A stretch of DNA of 38,075 nt from Coriobacteriaceae bacterium. GTDB taxonomy: Bacteria > Actinomycetota > Coriobacteriia > Coriobacteriales > Atopobiaceae. Location: contig QOUO01000016.1 of NCBI GenBank assembly GCA_003862195.1, forward strand, positions 1-38,075, given 5' to 3'. A program made the position numbers and the translations under genes. The notes beneath the pieces were generated by a model, which was not told the origin of the DNA, made no database searches, and was given only the letters and a program-made list of their open reading frames with translations. Positions 17,348 through 30,304 of this stretch are shown here, piece by piece. The stretch's first letter is position 1. Every line of letters begins with the position of its first letter.

Positions 17348-17526
17348 GTAACATCGTGACAAATCACATAGCCATTCTACCTGCGGTTGTTTCGATTTCG
17401 CTACGTCTGGGAAACCCAACGGTATCCAGCCGATGAGGATTTGCGCACGCGGGCCGCGCGGGCGCGTTTCGGACATAAAATCCGTTTGGTATGTTGCCAC
17501 CTGAGGCAAAAGCGAGAGGAGACCCG

Positions 17527-20500
17527 ATGGCAGGTCAGGATTCCCTGAGGGAGTTCCAGGCGGCGCGAGAGCGGCGCTTCAACGGAGAGGGGCATGCCCC
17601 GCAGGGGCTGTACAGCCCCGAGTACGAGCACGACGCATGCGGCATCGGCGCGCTGGCGAGCCTTCGCGGCGAGCGCTCGCACGCGATGCTGGACGATGCG
17701 CTTGCGGTTCTGATGAACCTCGAGCACCGCGGAGGCAAGGGCCTCGAGAAGAACACGGGCGACGGCGCCGGCGTGCTGCTGCAGGTTCCGCACCGCCTGT
17801 TCCGCCGCGAGGCGCAGCGCGAGGGCCACATCCTTCCCGAGGAGGGGGAGTACGGCGTCGCCATGCTCTTCTTCCCGCAGGACCCCGAGGGCTACCGCGA
17901 CGCCCGTCGCGTCTTCGAGGACGGCTGCGCCCAGGAGGGCGTGCCCCTGCTGTTCTGGCGCGAGGTGCCCGTCGACCCGCATGACCTGGGCGACACGGCC
18001 AACCGCTGCCGCCCGCACATCGTGCAGGCCTTCCTGGGCAGGCCCGAGTCCACGCCCGCCGGCGAGGAGTTCGAGCGTCGCCTGTACGTGACGCGCCGCG
18101 TGATCGAGAAGCTCGCGGAGCACGAGCCGGCGCTCTCCGGCAAGACGTTCTACGTGTGCTCCATGAGCGCCCGCACCATCGTCTACAAGGGCATGCTCGT
18201 CGCGACGCAGCTGCGCTCGTTCTACCGCGACCTCGGCGACGCCTACGCCGAGACCGCGATCGCCCTGGTGCACTCGCGCTACTCCACCAACACCACGCCG
18301 AGCTGGGAGCGCGCGCACCCCAACCGCTACATCATCCACAACGGCGAGATCAATACGCTGCGCGGCAACGTCATCGGCGTCCGCGCGCGCGAGCCGGAGC
18401 TCTACTCCCCGGTCATGGGCGCCGAGCTCAAGAAGGTCATGCCCGTCATCAGGAGCGCCGGCTCCGACTCGGCCGTCCTCGACAACGTGCTCGAGTTCCT
18501 CGTCATGAACGGCAGGTCGCTCCCGCGCGCCGTGTCGCTGCTCCTGCCCGAGCCGTGGGACAAGAACCCCCAGCTCTCCGAGGAGCGCCGCGCGTTCGGC
18601 GCCTACCAGTCCATGCTGTCCGAGGCCTGGGACGGCCCCGCGGCCATCGCGTACACGGACGGCCACTATATGGGCGCCGCGCTCGACCGCAACGGCCTGC
18701 GCCCGGCCCGCTACTACGTCACCCGAGACGACCGCCTGATCCTCTCGTCCGAGGCGGGCGCCTGCAACGTCGAGCCCGAGGACATCGTCCAGAGCGGCTC
18801 GCTCGGCCCCGGCCAGATGCTCCTCGTCGACCCCGACAAGGGCCGCGTCATCTGGGACGACGAGCTCAAGGACAAGCTCGCGCGCGAGAAGCCCTATCGC
18901 GACTGGGTCGCGCAGGAGACGCTGGGCGTGAGCGACCTCGCGCCCGCGACCGAGGGCGACGCCGAGGGCGAGGCCGCCGACGCGGAGGCCCCGCTGTCGC
19001 TCAGGCTCGCACGCCACGGCTACCACTTCGACGACGTCGAGGAGGCCATCACCCCGATGGCCACCACGGGCAAGAAGCCCGGCGCCTCCATGGGCGCGGA
19101 CATGCCGCTCGCGGTGCTCTCCAGGCGCTCCCGCTCGTTCTTCGACTACTTCAACGAGCTCTTCGCGCAGGTAACCAACCCGCCCATCGACGCGCTGCGC
19201 GAGGACTTCGTGACGTCCTCGATCCTGTACCTGGGCAACCACGGCAACCTGCTGGAGGACCAGCGCAGCAGCTGCCGCCTCATCAGGCTCGAGACCCCGA
19301 TCCTCACGCGCGAGGACTTCGACCGCATCCTGCACGTGGACATGGTGGGCTTCTCCACCCGCCGCTTCACGGCGAGCTTCGGCCGCAACGCCGGCCCGCA
19401 CGCCCTGTCCAAGGCGCTCGACAGCCTCAACGCCGAGGTCGAGAAGGCCGTCCGCGAGGGCGTGAACATCATCGTGCTGTCCGACCGCGTGGGCGAGGGC
19501 CAGGTGCCCGTGCCGTCGCTCCTCTCGCTCGGCTCCGTGTCCCACCACCTCATCGAGTGCGGCCTTCGCATGAGGGCCGACATCGTGGTCGAGACCGGCG
19601 ACGCCATGACCCCGCACGACTACGCGTGCCTGGTGGGCTACGGCGCCTCGGCCATCTATCCCTACCTCGCGCACCAGCTCATCCGCCAGCTCGCGGACGA
19701 CGGCCACATCAAGGTGGACGGCGAGAAGGGCGTGGCTAACTACAACAAGGCCCTCACGGCGGGCATCGTCTCCATCATGTCGAAGATGGGCATCTCGACG
19801 ATGCAGGGCTATCACTCCGCGCAGATCTTCGAGGTCGTGGGCCTTGCCAAGGACGTCGTGGACCGCTGCTTCACCGGCACGCCCAGCCCCGTCGCAGGCC
19901 TCGACATGGACGACGTCCAGCGCGAGTGCGAGGGCCGCTACGACGAGGGCGAGGCCCAGCGCAGGAGCCCGGCTCCCGACCAGCTGGCGAGCTCCGGCAT
20001 CACGAAGTGGCGCCCGCTCGGCGGCGAGCAGCACATGCTGACCCCCGAGGTCATCTACCTGCTGCAGCGCGCCGTGCGCGAGGGCAGCTACGACACGTTC
20101 AAGCGCTACAGCGCCGCGCTGCACAGGCCCGGCCGCTCCATCGTTCTGTCCGACCTTCTCTCCTTCGTGCCCCTGCCGACGGGCCCCGTGCCCCTGGACG
20201 AGGTCGAGTCCGTCGACAGCATCGTCAAGCGCTTCGAGGCGGCGGCCATGAGCTACGGCGCCATCAGCGAGGAGGCGCACGAGACGATCGCCATCGCGAT
20301 GAACCGCCTGGGCGCCAAGTCGAACACCGGCGAGGGCGGCGAGAACCCCGTCCGCGAGACGACGCTCCCCAACGGCGACTCCAGGAACTCCGCCATCAAG
20401 CAGGTGGCCTCCGCGCGCTTTGGCGTGACGAGCCGCTACCTGCGCAGCGCCAAGGAGATCCAGATCAAGATGGCCCAGGGCGCCAAGCCCGGCGAGGGCG

Positions 20501-22188
20501 GCAACCTGCCCGGCAAGAAGGTCTGGCCGTGGGTCGCGGAGGTCAGGAACTCCACGCCCGGCGTCGGCCTGATCTCGCCCCCGCCCCACCACGACATCTA
20601 CTCGATCGAGGACCTGGCGGAGCTCATCTTCGACCTCAAGAACGCCAACCCCGACGCGATCGTCTCCGTCAAGCTCGTGAGCGAGGCCGGCGTGGGCACC
20701 ATCGCGACCGGCGTCGCCAAGGGCGGTGCCGACAAGATCCTGATCTCGGGCGCCAACGGCGGCACGGGCTCCGCACCGCGCGACTCCATCTATCACGCGG
20801 GCCTGCCGCTCGAGCTCGGCCTGGCCGAGACCCAGCAGACGCTGCTCCTGAACGGCCTGCGCTCGCGCGTGGTGCTCGAGGCTGACTCCAAGCTCATGGA
20901 CGGCCGCGACGTCGCCATCGCGTGCCTGCTCGGCGCCGAGGAGTTTGGCTTCGGCACGCCGGTGCTGCTGTCGCTCGGCTGCCTCATGCAGCGCGACTGC
21001 CAGCAGGACACCTGCCCCGTGGGCATCTGCACGCAGAACGCCTGCCTGAGGAAGCGCTTCGACGGCAAGCCGGAGTACGTGATCAACTTCATGAGGTACG
21101 TGGCGGAGGAGCTGCGCGAGGAAATGGCCAAGCTCGGCTTCCGCACCGTCGAGGACATGGTCGGCCACGTGGAGTGCCTGCGCCAGACCGGCGTGGAGGA
21201 CAACTGGAAGGCCGAGAAGATCGACCTCTCCGACATGCTGAAGAAGGTCGGCAACGACCTCGGCAAGTCCTTCCCGGGCGCGGAGGTGCCGCACTTCGTC
21301 GAGAGCATGGGCCCGGACGTGGGCCTCGACCAGACGCTCGACGCGACCCTGCTCATCCCGTACACCAAGGAGTGCCGCGAGTCCATGGGCCGCATGCACT
21401 TCTCGGTCGACATCGCAAACGTCAACCGCTGCACCGGCACCATGCTGGGCTCCGTCATCACCAAGGAGCACCCCAACGGCCTACCCGACGGCTCGATCGA
21501 GATCGAGTGCGTGGGCTCCGCCGGCCAGAGCTTTGGCGCGTTCATGCCCGCGGGCGTCACGATGAACGTCCACGGCGACGCGAACGACTACTTTGGCAAG
21601 GGCCTCTCCGGCGGCATCCTGACCGTCGCCCCCGCCGACAGCGCCACGTACAAGTTCGACGAGAACGTGGCCGTGGGCAACGTCGCGTTCTACGGCGCGA
21701 CGGCCGGCAAGGGCTTCATCAACGGCCTGGCGGGCCAGCGCTTTGGCGTGCGCAACTCCGGCGCGACCATCGTGTGCGAGGGCGTGGGCAACCACGGCTG
21801 CGAGTACATGACGGGCGGCGTCGCGCTGATCCTGGGCCAGGTGGGCGTCAACTTCGCCGCTGGCATGAGCGGCGGCGTCGCGTACGTCTACGACGAGCGC
21901 CACGTGCTCGACTCCAGGGTCAACCACGACATGGTCCTCATGGAGAAGCCCACGGCCGACGAGCTGGAGCTCATCCACTCCCTGGTGCAGGAGCACGCGG
22001 AGCGCACCAACAGCCCGCGCGGCATCAAGATGCTCTACAGGTTCGACGACATCAAAGACGACTTCGTGAAGGTCATCCCGCGCGAGTACAAGCGCGTCCT
22101 CGAGCTCACGGCCGAGGCCAAGGCCGACGGCCTTGACGACGAGGCCGCCGAGGAGCGTGCCTTCCAGGTCATGAGGAAGGGGATGTAG
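17527..22188 (+). CDS. gltB: Glutamate synthase large subunit
   Basis: This 1,553-residue protein matches the usual GltB length. The glutaminase domain starts at Cys38 (HDACGIGALA) after a propeptide, and the ammonia it frees is channelled to the FMN domain, where 2-oxoglutarate is converted to glutamate. FMN-domain marks are KPGEGGNLPGKKVWPWVAEV, then GVGLISPPPHHDIYSIEDLA, and SGANGGTGSAPRDSIYHAGL. The 3Fe-4S cysteines are in CQQDTCPVGICTQNAC, and the C-terminal beta-helix has the expected G-rich repeats (GGVALILGQVGVNFAAGMSG). The ATG at 17527 follows GAGAGGAG. It is three bases from gltD. A very long open frame on the opposite strand is a GC-bias shadow. Confidence 0.97.
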   Translation: MAGQDSLREFQAARERRFNGEGHAPQGLYSPEYEHDACGIGALASLRGERSHAMLDDALAVLMNLEHRGGKGLEKNTGDGAGVLLQVPHRLFRREAQREGHILPEEGEYGVAMLFFPQDPEGYRDARRVFEDGCAQEGVPLLFWREVPVDPHDLGDTANRCRPHIVQAFLGRPESTPAGEEFERRLYVTRRVIEKLAEHEPALSGKTFYVCSMSARTIVYKGMLVATQLRSFYRDLGDAYAETAIALVHSRYSTNTTPSWERAHPNRYIIHNGEINTLRGNVIGVRAREPELYSPVMGAELKKVMPVIRSAGSDSAVLDNVLEFLVMNGRSLPRAVSLLLPEPWDKNPQLSEERRAFGAYQSMLSEAWDGPAAIAYTDGHYMGAALDRNGLRPARYYVTRDDRLILSSEAGACNVEPEDIVQSGSLGPGQMLLVDPDKGRVIWDDELKDKLAREKPYRDWVAQETLGVSDLAPATEGDAEGEAADAEAPLSLRLARHGYHFDDVEEAITPMATTGKKPGASMGADMPLAVLSRRSRSFFDYFNELFAQVTNPPIDALREDFVTSSILYLGNHGNLLEDQRSSCRLIRLETPILTREDFDRILHVDMVGFSTRRFTASFGRNAGPHALSKALDSLNAEVEKAVREGVNIIVLSDRVGEGQVPVPSLLSLGSVSHHLIECGLRMRADIVVETGDAMTPHDYACLVGYGASAIYPYLAHQLIRQLADDGHIKVDGEKGVANYNKALTAGIVSIMSKMGISTMQGYHSAQIFEVVGLAKDVVDRCFTGTPSPVAGLDMDDVQRECEGRYDEGEAQRRSPAPDQLASSGITKWRPLGGEQHMLTPEVIYLLQRAVREGSYDTFKRYSAALHRPGRSIVLSDLLSFVPLPTGPVPLDEVESVDSIVKRFEAAAMSYGAISEEAHETIAIAMNRLGAKSNTGEGGENPVRETTLPNGDSRNSAIKQVASARFGVTSRYLRSAKEIQIKMAQGAKPGEGGNLPGKKVWPWVAEVRNSTPGVGLISPPPHHDIYSIEDLAELIFDLKNANPDAIVSVKLVSEAGVGTIATGVAKGGADKILISGANGGTGSAPRDSIYHAGLPLELGLAETQQTLLLNGLRSRVVLEADSKLMDGRDVAIACLLGAEEFGFGTPVLLSLGCLMQRDCQQDTCPVGICTQNACLRKRFDGKPEYVINFMRYVAEELREEMAKLGFRTVEDMVGHVECLRQTGVEDNWKAEKIDLSDMLKKVGNDLGKSFPGAEVPHFVESMGPDVGLDQTLDATLLIPYTKECRESMGRMHFSVDIANVNRCTGTMLGSVITKEHPNGLPDGSIEIECVGSAGQSFGAFMPAGVTMNVHGDANDYFGKGLSGGILTVAPADSATYKFDENVAVGNVAFYGATAGKGFINGLAGQRFGVRNSGATIVCEGVGNHGCEYMTGGVALILGQVGVNFAAGMSGGVAYVYDERHVLDSRVNHDMVLMEKPTADELELIHSLVQEHAERTNSPRGIKMLYRFDDIKDDFVKVIPREYKRVLELTAEAKADGLDDEAAEERAFQVMRKGM

Positions 22189-22191
22189 CCA

Positions 22192-23649
22192 ATGGGCAAG
22201 GTAGGAGGATTCCTGGAGCAGGGCCGCCACGAGCACGGCATGCGTCCGATCGAGGAGCGCGTGCACGACTACGACGACCTCTCCGTCACGCTTCCCGAGG
22301 ATCAGCTTCGCGCCCAGGCAGGCCGCTGCATGTACTGCGGCGTCGCGTTCTGCCAGACCGGCGTCAACTTTGGCAAGGCGCGCACGAGCGGCTGCCCGCT
22401 GCACAACCTGATTCCCGAGTGGAACGACCTCATCTGGCGCGGCCTCTGGGACGACGCGGCCGAGCGCCTCGCGCTCACCAACCCGCTGCCCGAGTTCACG
22501 GGCCGCGTGTGCCCCGCGCTCTGCGAGGCGGCCTGCAACCTGGGCCTGCACGACGATCCCACGACCATCCGCGACGACGAGCGCGCCATAAGCGACTGGC
22601 AGTGGGAGCACGGCGGTCCCAAGCCGCTGGAGCCCGCGCCCAAGGGCGCGCCGCTCGTGACCGTGGTGGGCACCGGCCCGTCCGGCCTGGCCTGCGCGTG
22701 GGAGCTCGCCCGCCGCGGCCTGCGCGTGCACATGGTCGAGAAGAGCGACCGTCCGGGCGGCCTGCTCATGTACGGCATCCCCAACATGAAGCTCCCCAAG
22801 GACGTGGTGGAGCGCAGGGCCGACCTCATGCGCAGGAGCGGCATCCAGATCGAGTGCGGCGTGGACGCATCCGACCCCAAGGTCGCGGCGAAGCTCGCCA
22901 AGACGAGCGACGCCGTCGTGCTCGCCGCGGGCACCGGCCGCGCCCGCACACTCAGGGTGCCTGGCGCCGACAAGGACGGTGTGCACCTGGCCGTGGAGTA
23001 CCTCACGGCCCAGACGAAGGCACTTCTCGACGGCACCAAGAGCCCCATTTCCGCTGAGGGCAAGGACGTCGTCGTGATCGGCGGCGGCGACACCGGCACC
23101 GACTGCGTCGCGACGGCGCTGCGCCAGGGCGCCAAGTCCATCATGCAGCTCGAGTTCCTACCTGAGCCGCCCGAGCAGCCGGCTCCCGGCAACGCCTGGC
23201 CCGAGTGGCCGGTGGTCAAGAAGACCGACTACGGCCAGCAGGAGGCCATCGCGACGTTTGGCGAGGACAGGCGTCTGTGGGCCACGGACACGCTCGAGGT
23301 CCTGGGCGATGCCTCGGTCGAGGGGCTCAAGATCGTCTCGCTCGACTGGACGTCCGGCAAGCCCGTCCGCAAGGAGGAGACCGAGCGCACGCTGCCCGCG
23401 CAGCTCGTCGTGCTGGCCATGGGCTTCCTCGGCCCCGACACGGGCCTCGTGGAGGCCTTCGGTGGCGAGGTCGCGCAGCAGGGGAGGCCGCTGCCCGTCA
23501 CCGTCGGCAAGCGCCACGTGCTCGCGGGCGCCAAGGACGGCCGCGTCTACTGCGCCGGCGACACCAGGAACGGCTCGACCATCGTGGTGAACGCCATCTC
23601 CGACGGCCTCGCCTGCGCCGCCGAGGTCGCGTCCGACCTGCTGGGATAG
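22192..23649 (+). CDS. gltD: Glutamate synthase small subunit
   Basis: This 485-residue flavoprotein feeds electrons from NAD(P)H to GltB. The N-terminal Fe-S region has CMYCGVAFCQTG, SGCPLHN and VCPALCEAACNLG. FAD binding is shown by VVGTGPSGLACAWELARRG and the NAD(P)H site by VVIGGGDTGTDCVATALRQG. The C-terminal FAD contact is VYCAGDTRNGSTIVVNAISD. It starts three bases after gltB, so it is co-transcribed and probably co-translated. Length and motifs are normal. Confidence 0.97.
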   Translation: MGKVGGFLEQGRHEHGMRPIEERVHDYDDLSVTLPEDQLRAQAGRCMYCGVAFCQTGVNFGKARTSGCPLHNLIPEWNDLIWRGLWDDAAERLALTNPLPEFTGRVCPALCEAACNLGLHDDPTTIRDDERAISDWQWEHGGPKPLEPAPKGAPLVTVVGTGPSGLACAWELARRGLRVHMVEKSDRPGGLLMYGIPNMKLPKDVVERRADLMRRSGIQIECGVDASDPKVAAKLAKTSDAVVLAAGTGRARTLRVPGADKDGVHLAVEYLTAQTKALLDGTKSPISAEGKDVVVIGGGDTGTDCVATALRQGAKSIMQLEFLPEPPEQPAPGNAWPEWPVVKKTDYGQQEAIATFGEDRRLWATDTLEVLGDASVEGLKIVSLDWTSGKPVRKEETERTLPAQLVVLAMGFLGPDTGLVEAFGGEVAQQGRPLPVTVGKRHVLAGAKDGRVYCAGDTRNGSTIVVNAISDGLACAAEVASDLLG

Positions 23650-23693
23650 CGGCGTAGCGGCTCCGCGCGCGACACATAGGTTGCAAGTTGCCT

Positions 23694-23727
23694 GCGACCC
23701 CGGACATGACGTCATGTTCGGGGTCGC
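23694..23727. terminator. 34-base near-perfect palindrome after gltD
   Basis: Two 17-base arms meet directly (GCGACCCCGGACATGAC with its complement, one G-T wobble), centred on GACGTC. No T run follows. It may end gltD transcription, or be a mobile palindromic repeat. Further on, CGGCTCCCT (23777-23785) pairs with AGGGAGCCG (23797-23805), another hairpin without T's. The 300-base gap holds no gene I can support. Confidence 0.55.
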
Positions 23728-23879
23728 TTCGTGTTGGGACTGGCGAGTGCGGGCTGACGCGTGGCCATATCCCAGACGGCTCCCTCGCGATAAGCAAGGG
23801 AGCCGCAAGGCCAACAGGCGATCGCGCTCGCAAGTGGGGGGAGAAGTACGCCCGTTCCAACCGACACCCCGGCATAAAA

Positions 23880-23914
23880 GAAGCCCCGCCTCGCTTGGTG
23901 CGAGACGGGGCTTC
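23880..23914 (-). terminator. Terminator after glnN (bidirectional shape)
   Basis: A 15-bp stem with one mismatch (23880-23894 with 23900-23914) and a five-base loop. On the minus strand it is followed by TTTTA, so it fits an intrinsic terminator for the glutamine synthetase gene ending at 23950. Confidence 0.8.
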
Positions 23915-23949
23915 GTTGCAACTGGTGTCAGGTTGCGAACTACGCTTTC

Positions 23950-26040
<2,091 letters not shown>

Positions 26041-26126
26041 CAGTCCTCCTCTGACGGAATTTGACCGTAGGCCGAATGGCGGCCCCTCGTACATAATGAA
26101 TCATAGCGATTGCCCGTTGCCCCCAA

Positions 26127-27273: not shown

Positions 27274-27687
27274 ATGGCGGAAGAGAAGACCGAGGGTAAG
27301 GGCACGATCGACCTCACACAGGAGCTGGGAAAGATCGCGGCTGAGGCGCCCGAGGTGCCGGGGGTCCTGGAGGAGCTTGGCTTCGAGCAGCCCGACCCCG
27401 CGAAGACCGTGCTCGAGGCATGCGAGGACGCCGGCGTGGACGCGTCGATCGTGGCGCTTGCCCTTCTCGCCGAGGGCTATGACGTGGAAGGCTACGAGAG
27501 CGAGGACGGCGGCGTCGCCGCAAGGGCGTTCGACACCGTGCTGACCGCGCTCTTCGATCCCACGAGCGACCTGATGCCCGACGCGTCCGGCTCCGACGCG
27601 CCGATGCTCGCGCACATGGAGGCGGCCGTCCGCCGTGCCCAGCGCGAGGGCAACCTTCCCGGGTGCCAGTGCCACCGCAAGGGATAG
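27274..27687 (+). CDS. Hypothetical acidic protein, 137 aa
   Basis: I do not recognise a family. The protein is acidic and predicted helical, with a core (VLEELGFEQPDPAKTVLEAC then EDAGVDASIVALALLAEGYD) that could be a small helical bundle domain. The C-terminus ends CQCHRKG, and Cys49 in EACEDAG adds a third Cys; with the His this could bind metal, which is speculation. ATG 27274 has GGGAGAGG. It leads a set with the solute-binding lipoprotein (83 bases later) and the fused ABC transporter, so a role linked to that transport is possible. Confidence 0.65.
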   Translation: MAEEKTEGKGTIDLTQELGKIAAEAPEVPGVLEELGFEQPDPAKTVLEACEDAGVDASIVALALLAEGYDVEGYESEDGGVAARAFDTVLTALFDPTSDLMPDASGSDAPMLAHMEAAVRRAQREGNLPGCQCHRKG

Positions 27688-27770: not shown

Positions 27771-28859
27771 ATGAGCAGGAACATGACGCGTCGCGAGGCG
27801 CTTGCGACCTTCGCGGGACTGGGTTTTGCCGGGGTGCTTTCCGCGTGCGGGAATTCCGGTTCCGACGGGAGCGACAGCTCCTCCTCCGCCAAGAAGGCGA
27901 GCTCCAAGAAGAAGTCCGAGGACGTCGTCGTCCGCGTCGCCTCGCTCAAGGGGCCGACGACCATCGGCCTCGTGCAGATGATGAACTCGACCACGGGCAT
28001 CCCCGAGTCCGGCGCGTCGCTTCCGGCGAGCAACAAGGCCAAGGCGGGCTCCGGCGTGACGTACGCGTACTCCGTCAGCGCGGCGCCGGACGAGATCCTT
28101 CCCCTCGTGATCCAGGGCAAGGTGGACATCGCGTGCGTGCCGTCCAACGTGGGCTCCGTCCTGTACAACAAGACGAACGGCAAGATCAAGGTGATCGACC
28201 TCAACACGCTGGGCGTGCTGAGCGTGGTCACGGGTGACTCGAGCGTGAAGAAGTTCAAGGACCTGGCCGGCAAGACGGTCTACATCTCCGGCAAGGGCTC
28301 GAGCCCCGAGTACGTCCTCAACTACCTGCTTGACAAGGCGGGCATCAAGGACCAGGTGACCCTCGAGTGGAAGAGCGAGCACACCGAGGTCGCGGCCGTG
28401 CTGGCCAAGGACACCAATGCGGTGGGCGTGCTGCCGCAGCCGTTCACGACGGCGACGCTGGTGCAGGTGCCTGCGCTGAAGGCGCCCATCGACCTGACGG
28501 ACGTGTGGAAGAAGTACGCGAAGGACGGCAGCCAGTTCGTGATGGGTACGACCATCGTGCGCAGCAAGTTTGCGGATGAGTACCCGGGCGCCGTGCAGGA
28601 CTTCCTCGAGCGCCACGCGAAGTCGGTCAAGACGGTCAAGGCGGACCCCTCCGGCACCGCGTCGCTGGTCGTGAAGGCGGGCATCGTAGCGAAGGAGGCC
28701 ATCGCGAAGAAGGCCATCCCCGAGTGCAACGTGGTCTGCATCACCGGCAAGAAGATGAAGAAGGGCCTGGAGGGCTACCTCAAGGTGCTGTACAAGGCGG
28801 ACAAGACGTCCGTCGGCGGTGCCCTGCCCGCGGACGACTTCTACTACCTGGGCGAGTAG
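27771..28859 (+). CDS. ABC solute-binding lipoprotein (NMT1/TauA-like)
   Basis: This 362-residue protein has a signal with twin Arg (MSRNMTRREALATF) and a lipobox LSAC, Cys26, so it is a lipoprotein and may use Tat. After a Ser/Lys linker, the two-lobe binding domain follows (VRVASLKGPTTIGLVQMMNS; ILPLVIQGKVDIACVPSNVG; FKDLAGKTVYISGKGSSPEY). The wording fits the NitT/TauT/NMT1 class (nitrate, taurine, thiamine precursors), but the ligand is not predictable. ATG 27771 follows GAGGGGAGAAG, a variant of the dispersed motif. It is 17 bases from the ABC permease-ATPase. Confidence 0.88.
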   Translation: MSRNMTRREALATFAGLGFAGVLSACGNSGSDGSDSSSSAKKASSKKKSEDVVVRVASLKGPTTIGLVQMMNSTTGIPESGASLPASNKAKAGSGVTYAYSVSAAPDEILPLVIQGKVDIACVPSNVGSVLYNKTNGKIKVIDLNTLGVLSVVTGDSSVKKFKDLAGKTVYISGKGSSPEYVLNYLLDKAGIKDQVTLEWKSEHTEVAAVLAKDTNAVGVLPQPFTTATLVQVPALKAPIDLTDVWKKYAKDGSQFVMGTTIVRSKFADEYPGAVQDFLERHAKSVKTVKADPSGTASLVVKAGIVAKEAIAKKAIPECNVVCITGKKMKKGLEGYLKVLYKADKTSVGGALPADDFYYLGE

Positions 28860-28876: not shown

Positions 28877-30304
28877 GTGCGGGGAAGGCTTGCTGACATA
28901 GTGAGGAGGCTCGCGCCTGTCGCGCTGTGGGTGTGCGTGTGGCAGGTCGCGAGCCTTGTCGTGGGGAGCGGCATCCTGCTGGCCGGTCCCGTGGACACGG
29001 TTGTGAGGCTGGCGTCGCTCCTGGGCGATGCCAGCTTCCTTTCGACGGTGGGGTTCTCGCTCGTGCGGATCGTCGTCGGCTTTGCGCTGGGGTTTGCGGG
29101 CGCGGTGGCGCTCGCGTTTGCCGGGGCGCGTTGGGGCGTGGTGCGCACGATCTTCTCGCCCGCGTTGAGCGTGCTCAAGAGCGTGCCCATCGTCTGCGTG
29201 ATCGTGCTGCTGCTCATGTGGGTTGGCGCTGGCAGCGTGTCCGCCGTGGCGGTGTTCTTGGCCGTGTTCCCGGCGGTGTTCTTTAGCTGCTCCGAGGCGC
29301 TTGACAACGTGGACGCAAAGACGGGCGAGATGCTCGAGGTCTTTGGCGTGCCGCGCGTGCGGCGGCTGCTCGCGCACGTCTGGCCCGAGGTGCTGCCGTA
29401 CCTGGTGGGCACGAGCCGGAACGTGTGCGGCATGGCGTGGAAGGCGGGCGTCGCGGCGGAGCTCATCGGGAGCCCGATGGGGTCGATCGGCGAGCGCATC
29501 TACCAGTCGAAGCTCCTGCTTGAGACTGCGGACCTGTTTGCGTGGACCATCGTGATCGTGGTGATGTCGTGGCTGTGCGAGCGCGCCTTTGTGGCGGTGC
29601 TTGCGCGCACGGGATCGTGGGCACTGCGGGCGAGCCTGCGCGTCGGGCGACCGAGGCGTACGGTTGGCGTAGGGGAGTGTGGCGCGCGCACTGACGGGGT
29701 GCGCCGCGGTGAGGTCGTGCTGGATGGCGTCACGATCGGCTACCCCGGACGCGTGGTGGCGAGGGGCGTCCGCATGGACGTGACGCCTGGTGAGCGCGTG
29801 ATCTGCTCGGACGCGTCCGGCGCGGGCAAGACGACGCTGCTGCGGACCGTGGCGGGACTCCAGCCGGCGCTTGCCGGCACTTGCGCCGTTGGCGGAGCCG
29901 TGACGATGGCCTTCCAGGACGTGCGGCTGATTGGCGGCATGTCTGCGGTGCAGAACCTGCTGCTTGTGATTGGTTCGAGCCGTGACGACGGGGCGCGGGA
30001 TCGCGCGCGGGAGCTCCTGGCGGAGCTTCTGCCTGCGGAGACGCTGAACGTTCCCGTGGACCAGCTTTCTGGCGGGCAGCGCCGCAGGGTCGAGCTTGCC
30101 CGGGCCATCGCCGCGCCGGGCGACGTGGTGCTGCTGGACGAGCCGTTCGCGTCGCTGGACGCCGCATCGCACGAGGTGGCCGCGCGGTTTGTGACGGGCC
30201 ACCTTGGGGGACGCACGCTGATAGTCGCCTCGCACGAGGCTGGCGACGCCGAGCGACTGGACGCCACGGCGTACTCGCTGGGCGGGACTGCGGCCGAGGC
30301 CTAG
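28877..30304 (+). CDS. Single-chain ABC permease-ATPase fusion
   Basis: This is a 475-residue protein. Residues 1 to ~255 are a BPD-type permease of the NitT/TauT/SsuC class (FAGARWGVVRTIFSPALSVL, then KSVPIVCVIVLLLMWVGAGS; the EAA loop is FGVPRVRRLLAHVWPEVLPY). From ~270 it continues as an ABC ATPase: Walker A SDASGAGKTTLLR near 312, Q-loop AFQDVRLIGG, signature LSGGQRRRVELARAI near 396, Walker B VVLLDEPFASLD near 416, and H-loop VASHEAG. These are normally separate proteins; the ATPase is short (~205 residues). GTG 28877 has a poor ribosome site; GTG 28901 lies 12 bases after GGGGAAGG and is an alternative. A motif copy on the opposite strand (29152-29161) lies in the permease. Confidence 0.85.
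   Translation: MRGRLADIVRRLAPVALWVCVWQVASLVVGSGILLAGPVDTVVRLASLLGDASFLSTVGFSLVRIVVGFALGFAGAVALAFAGARWGVVRTIFSPALSVLKSVPIVCVIVLLLMWVGAGSVSAVAVFLAVFPAVFFSCSEALDNVDAKTGEMLEVFGVPRVRRLLAHVWPEVLPYLVGTSRNVCGMAWKAGVAAELIGSPMGSIGERIYQSKLLLETADLFAWTIVIVVMSWLCERAFVAVLARTGSWALRASLRVGRPRRTVGVGECGARTDGVRRGEVVLDGVTIGYPGRVVARGVRMDVTPGERVICSDASGAGKTTLLRTVAGLQPALAGTCAVGGAVTMAFQDVRLIGGMSAVQNLLLVIGSSRDDGARDRARELLAELLPAETLNVPVDQLSGGQRRRVELARAIAAPGDVVLLDEPFASLDAASHEVAARFVTGHLGGRTLIVASHEAGDAERLDATAYSLGGTAAEA

Follow-up and report, generated by a model that had tools for sequence, protein, structure and literature searches.

The window, a stretch of 38,075 nucleotides from a contig of an Atopobiaceae bacterium, contained a gene in which the permease and the ATPase of an ABC importer were joined in one chain (Table 1). 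The frame was open for 475 codons with zero internal stops, and its start matched the collinear start in a congener (locus L023). Pfam matched BPD_transp_1 at residues 84-233 (50.8 bits against a cut-off of 26.4) and ABC_tran at residues 297-425 of the same chain (67.4 bits against a cut-off of 25). These were the only two Pfam matches, and no ABC_membrane-type transmembrane domain, as in the exporter fold, was found. Residues 151-174 were taken to be the EAA loop from knowledge of the family, and the catalytic motifs of the ATPase were complete and in the expected order. The lipoprotein gene ended at 28859, 17 bases 5' of the fused gene. BPD_transp_1 with an EAA loop, the ATPase motifs and the cognate NMT1/SsuA-type lipoprotein are the marks of a NitT/TauT-type (type I) importer. 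Separate permease and ATPase subunits are usual but not essential for this type, and here both lay in a single frame. The first-pass annotation had read from the letters alone a permease followed by an ATPase with no stop or restart between them, the NitT/TauT class and a lipoprotein partner 17 bases upstream, and all three readings were borne out. The product is almost certainly a fused importer.

Table 1. Features of the importer genes and of the genes upstream (positions in the window)
Feature	Position	Strand	Basis or remark
Glutamate synthase, large and small subunits	17491-23649		
Glutamine synthetase III	23950-26094		
Lipoprotein substrate-binding protein (SBP), NMT1/SsuA family, cognate partner	27771-28859	+	Pfam NMT1, 33.3 bits; SsuA_fam, E 1.3e-15
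Fused ABC importer subunit, permease and ATPase	28877-30304	+	475 aa, GTG start
Permease (transmembrane) domain, aa 1-245	28877-29611	+	Pfam BPD_transp_1; helices in AlphaFold model
EAA-type coupling loop (presumed), aa 151-174, EMLEVFGVPRVRRLLAHVWPEVLP	29327-29398	+	Sequence motif
Inter-domain linker, aa 256-279	29642-29713	+	Low confidence in model; varies among relatives (alignment)
ATPase (nucleotide-binding) domain, aa 280-470	29714-30286	+	Pfam ABC_tran; Foldseek match to MalK
Walker A, DASGAGKTT	29810-29836	+	GxxGxGK with Asp for the first Gly
Q-loop Gln	29915	+	Motif reading
ABC signature, LSGGQ	30065-30079	+	Motif reading
Walker B, VVLLDEP	30125-30145	+	Motif reading
H-switch His (ASHEA)	30233-30235	+	Motif reading

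In the AlphaFold model (nine sequences, mean pLDDT 81), the permease helices were followed by a disordered linker, with pLDDT below 50 at residues 260-274, and then by the ATPase fold. The ATPase domain aligned with MalK at an rmsd of ~2 over ~200 columns in Foldseek. A likeness of the permease to exporters was discarded because the long Foldseek alignments had rmsd values of 15-29 and were meaningless, the search with the fused model being dominated by the ATPase domain. The ATPase domain had previously been described as short and trimmed. It was indeed short, at ~190 residues, but the spacing from the Walker A lysine to the Q-loop was 30-32 in most homologues, fused or split. The shortness is therefore not a result of the fusion, and a trimmed ATPase as a trait of the fused form was ruled out. 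Most split homologues retained the first glycine of Walker A; the window lineage had Asp in its place, and the other fused members mostly had Ala or Asp.

The model of the lipoprotein matched the fold of NitT/TauT-type SBPs with Z of 22-26, and the SBP gene adjoined the permease gene in most fetched loci. The best fold matches were PqqT, BDI_1369, SsuA, TauA, CmpA, NrtA and Thi5. Assignment of the cargo from the SBP fold was rejected because these proteins bind unlike ligands and their Z values were nearly tied. In the lipoprotein family, the Cys at position 319 was kept in 91% of 75 sequences and the motifs KGPT, VPxN, GKGxxPEY and LPQPF were conserved; judged by this conservation, they are candidates for the ligand site. 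The neighbours of the importer genes in the window encoded glutamate synthase, glutamine synthetase III, a methyltransferase-like protein, a small protein and a class II amidotransferase. The region 17491-26094 formed a nitrogen-assimilation neighbourhood just upstream of the importer genes, and glutamine synthetase III was also found near the importer in three other loci (L026, L030 and L032). A 137-residue protein encoded at 27274-27687 matched nothing in Pfam or NCBIfam. In the set of loci that were compared, homologues of it were present in both congeners only, always just 5' of the lipoprotein gene.

The same fusion had been proposed for a search in relatives, with a stop and restart in homologues as the sign of an assembly error. 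The fused chain was present in both congeners (67-68% identity, no stops), one of which is a single-contig genome. When 140 genomes of the family and 347 of the order were searched, dozens of genera from several families proved to have the full-length fused chain, the fusion recurring across the order in Atopobiaceae, in Collinsella and in relatives. An evenly drawn set of 346 genomes from the phylum contained none outside the order at E <= 1e-40. The 80 loci with both domains comprised 56 fused and 24 split cases, and two more loci held the permease only. In a quick tree of 79 sequences, 52 of the fused ones grouped in a single clade (SH-aLRT 99), and there were two more fused groups. The split SBP-permease-ATPase versions persisted in other lineages, mostly on separate branches of the tree. 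The suspicion of an assembly error failed because most of the paired loci were fused in a single frame and the split ones lay mostly on branches of their own. Split homologues do occur in related lineages, but a frameshift between two neighbouring genes, introduced in sequencing or assembly, is virtually excluded by the identical continuous frame in both congeners and in the 52-sequence clade, many of whose members come from complete or nearly complete genomes. A single origin for all fused sequences was disfavoured in the quick tree with its long branches (AU p = 0.005), which suggests that at least one further fusion arose separately from the main clade. Since the split relatives keep the SBP-permease-ATPase order, the fusion most simply arose by the joining of neighbouring genes. 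The fusion is old within a group of gut bacteria and is an elegant variation, in which a NitT/TauT importer consists of only two genes and has been maintained across a bacterial order. RefSeq lists the fused member of Collinsella under the generic name “ATP-binding cassette domain-containing protein”. Five loci (L084, L085, L087, L116 and L117) had split permeases with an N-terminal extension of more than 100 residues, and these loci also held a large gene of the BadF/2-hydroxyglutaryl-CoA dehydratase activase type.

A link of the importer to hydrogenase genes lay outside the window sequence. In about 25 fetched loci from several families, the SBP-transporter pair was located directly after or beside the genes for a HydB-like flavoprotein and a group A [FeFe]-hydrogenase. 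The HydB-HydA and lipoprotein-transporter genes often overlapped, and the same hydrogenase-importer gene order is annotated by RefSeq in Collinsella aerofaciens. HydB carried GltD-like domains, and the HydDB rule would on this basis assign the hydrogenase to group A2, although the rule is framed for the gene downstream. Beyond the order, a family of the same phylum had the gene arrangement HydA-TM1266-SBP-permease-ATPase with split genes (L142; locus L145 was alike, its contig ending within the permease gene), and a clostridial relative had TM1266-SBP-permease-ATPase. The split arrangement outside the order implies that the hydrogenase link predates the fusion. TM1266 (TIGR03959) carries the annotation of a regulator of iron-only hydrogenase systems. 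Of the 32 Atopobiaceae genomes that had both it and the fused gene, 15 had the two no more than 2 kb apart. Of the genomes tested, TM1266 stood next to the importer in 8 of the 10 that lacked HydE/HydF and in none of the 4 that had them (p = 0.015). In the window genome, the importer and HydBA were on different contigs (HydA and HydB at G000:C47, locus L138), and TM1266 was absent from the window genus. These neighbourhoods make it quite probable that the importer belongs to the [FeFe]-hydrogenase system.

With a concatenated query and a threshold of E <= 1e-30, the window genome gave no hit to HydE, HydF or HydG; the same query found true homologues of 51-100% identity in other genomes. Both congeners likewise lacked HydE, HydF and HydG although HydA was present. 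The H-cluster motifs TSCCPGW, MPCxAKK and ExMACPGGC were intact in HydA of the genomes without these maturases, including the window genome. All HydA examined kept the motifs, except two that were truncated by contig ends and lacked the third. The window species and many relatives, including those of the Collinsella type, thus lack HydE, HydF and HydG but have [FeFe]-hydrogenases whose H-cluster motifs are intact. Among Atopobiaceae with group A HydA, the importer was present in all 23 tested genomes without HydE/HydF (20 fused, 3 split), compared with 7 of the 15 tested with them; the remaining 8 of these 15 had HydE/HydF and no importer, and no genome lacked both. This complementarity gave p = 1.3e-4 in a Fisher test and p = 0.005 at genus level, values that overstate the evidence because the genomes are related; the 80 genomes had been hand-picked before their HydE/HydF status was known. 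The importer occurred together with HydEF or HydEFG in genomes G022, G041, G042, G132, G043, G209 and G258 and, in split form, in G077, G088 and G090. Several genomes had the importer without group A HydA. One of them, G058, also lacked HydEFG and at first seemed an exception; it was the one such genome in which other hydrogenase types were looked for, with roughly two thirds of its sequence covered, and it carried a group B monomeric [FeFe]-hydrogenase (L245:16804-18423, minus strand; TIGR04105, 604 bits). HydE and HydF without HydG were found in twelve genomes (G040, G041, G042, G044, G052, G061, G064, G072, G131, G132, G133 and G022), most of which were also without the importer. The CO and CN ligands are considered to require HydG.

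Apo-hydrogenase can be activated by synthetic [2Fe]adt in the absence of HydF, the synthetic complex is able to pass into living bacterial cells, and Collinsella has been reported to make H2. In the mechanism that we favour, the fused chain would be a half-transporter, and two copies would pair into a complete type I NitT/TauT-type importer fed by the lipoprotein encoded just upstream; because each chain holds one permease and one ATPase, a homodimer is expected as the complete translocator. The importer would bring in the organometallic [2Fe] portion of the H-cluster, or one of its precursors, which other gut organisms are postulated to supply, and the imported [2Fe] part would activate apo-hydrogenase in cells without HydE, HydF and HydG. 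This cargo is proposed because of the complementarity with HydEFG and the intact H-cluster site. We infer the homodimeric assembly, the transport activity and, most of all, the cargo, which we hold to be possible, at appreciably less than even chance. That the importer replaces HydEFG, so that gut bacteria which lost the entire maturation pathway keep their [FeFe]-hydrogenases active by scavenging the [2Fe] subcluster or a neighbour-made organometallic precursor through this dedicated importer, appears rather doubtful. The co-occurrence of HydEF and the importer in some genomes argues against strict replacement, but not against scavenging. The position of the window importer away from the hydrogenase genes, the absence of TM1266 from its genus, the importers in genomes without group A HydA and an SBP fold that fits many ligands also count against the favoured mechanism. 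The account as a whole, a single-chain, hydrogenase-linked importer bringing in the [2Fe] part of the H-cluster or a precursor, is put forward tentatively, as one that falls somewhat short of probable. If it is true, there would be a cofactor-sharing route for the H-cluster, and hydrogen metabolism in the gut would depend on cofactor exchange between species.

Alternatively, the importer could be tied to the hydrogenase and carry another cargo, such as a metal, a cofactor precursor or a compound to which HydBA passes electrons from NAD(P)H or H2; the H-cluster would then be made by unrecognised maturases. The genomic link fits any hydrogenase-related cargo, and the ligands bound by relatives of the SBP differ widely. 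There is also precedent for HydA in organisms that do not have every maturase: protists and Rhodospirillum rubrum have HydA without some or all of HydE, HydF and HydG (PMC4967309). Hydrogenase activation without maturases is a puzzle posed by some protists too; in contrast to these cases, a candidate replacement, the importer, was linked to the hydrogenase genes here. NitT/TauT transporters have also been reported beside clade B Ni-CODH (PMC6344411, PMC11338639), and PMC6344411 proposed a metal as their cargo. The same three components stand beside a metalloenzyme in those systems, whereas the partner here is the [FeFe]-hydrogenase. CODH had no match in the window genome (G000) and, at the threshold used, was absent from 138 of the 140 family genomes and present in 2, and the CODH link raised by these two papers was not found in this bacterial family. 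Another cargo alone does not predict the distribution of the importer between genomes without HydE/HydF and genomes with them, and we regard this alternative as possible, at appreciably less than even chance.

In another explanation, which we consider unlikely, the protein is an ordinary NitT/TauT nutrient importer for a sulfonate, a pyrimidine or a nitrogen compound, and its hydrogenase neighbourhood reflects inherited gene order and shared ecology. The nitrogen-assimilation genes beside the importer in the window, the genomes that have the importer without group A HydA and the resemblance of the SBP to SsuA, TauA and Thi5 agree with such a role. On the other hand, the link to hydrogenase genes turns up again in a different family of the phylum and in a clostridium, and TM1266 changes its partner with the loss of HydEF. 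Rfam found no TPP or other riboswitch ahead of the operon, either in the window or in the 12 other loci examined, which also speaks against a nutrient importer. A ThiXYZ-type importer of thiamin pyrimidine was rejected because the TPP riboswitch was missing from these loci.

The preferred single-chain, hydrogenase-linked importer was compared with known systems. It shares with the NitT/TauT importers (COG0715-COG0600-COG1116; SsuABC, TauABC, NrtABCD and CmpABCD) the common SBP fold, BPD_transp_1 with the EAA loop and the ATPase motifs, and its split relatives share their SBP-permease-ATPase order. It differs from them in the single chain, the replaced first glycine of Walker A and the [FeFe]-hydrogenase link. 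Siderophore importers of the IrtAB and YbtPQ type also import with a permease and an ATPase in one chain (PMC2991359), and PMC10246721 describes them with the exporter fold. In contrast, the transmembrane domain here is BPD_transp_1, a different family, and a lipoprotein SBP is present. In the open-licence literature, no report was found of a fused NitT/TauT permease-ATPase, or of a hydrogenase-linked importer or its complementarity with HydEFG. Of the findings, the hydrogenase link and the distribution of maturases most deserve to be pursued. Parabacteroides distasonis, from another phylum, has a 452-residue fused permease-ATPase (WP_011966425.1) whose gene overlaps an SBP gene (L160:4072-6356), with no hydrogenase genes nearby in the stretch seen. 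It is distant from the fused importer, with 24% identity over 97% of the query, and may represent an independent fusion.
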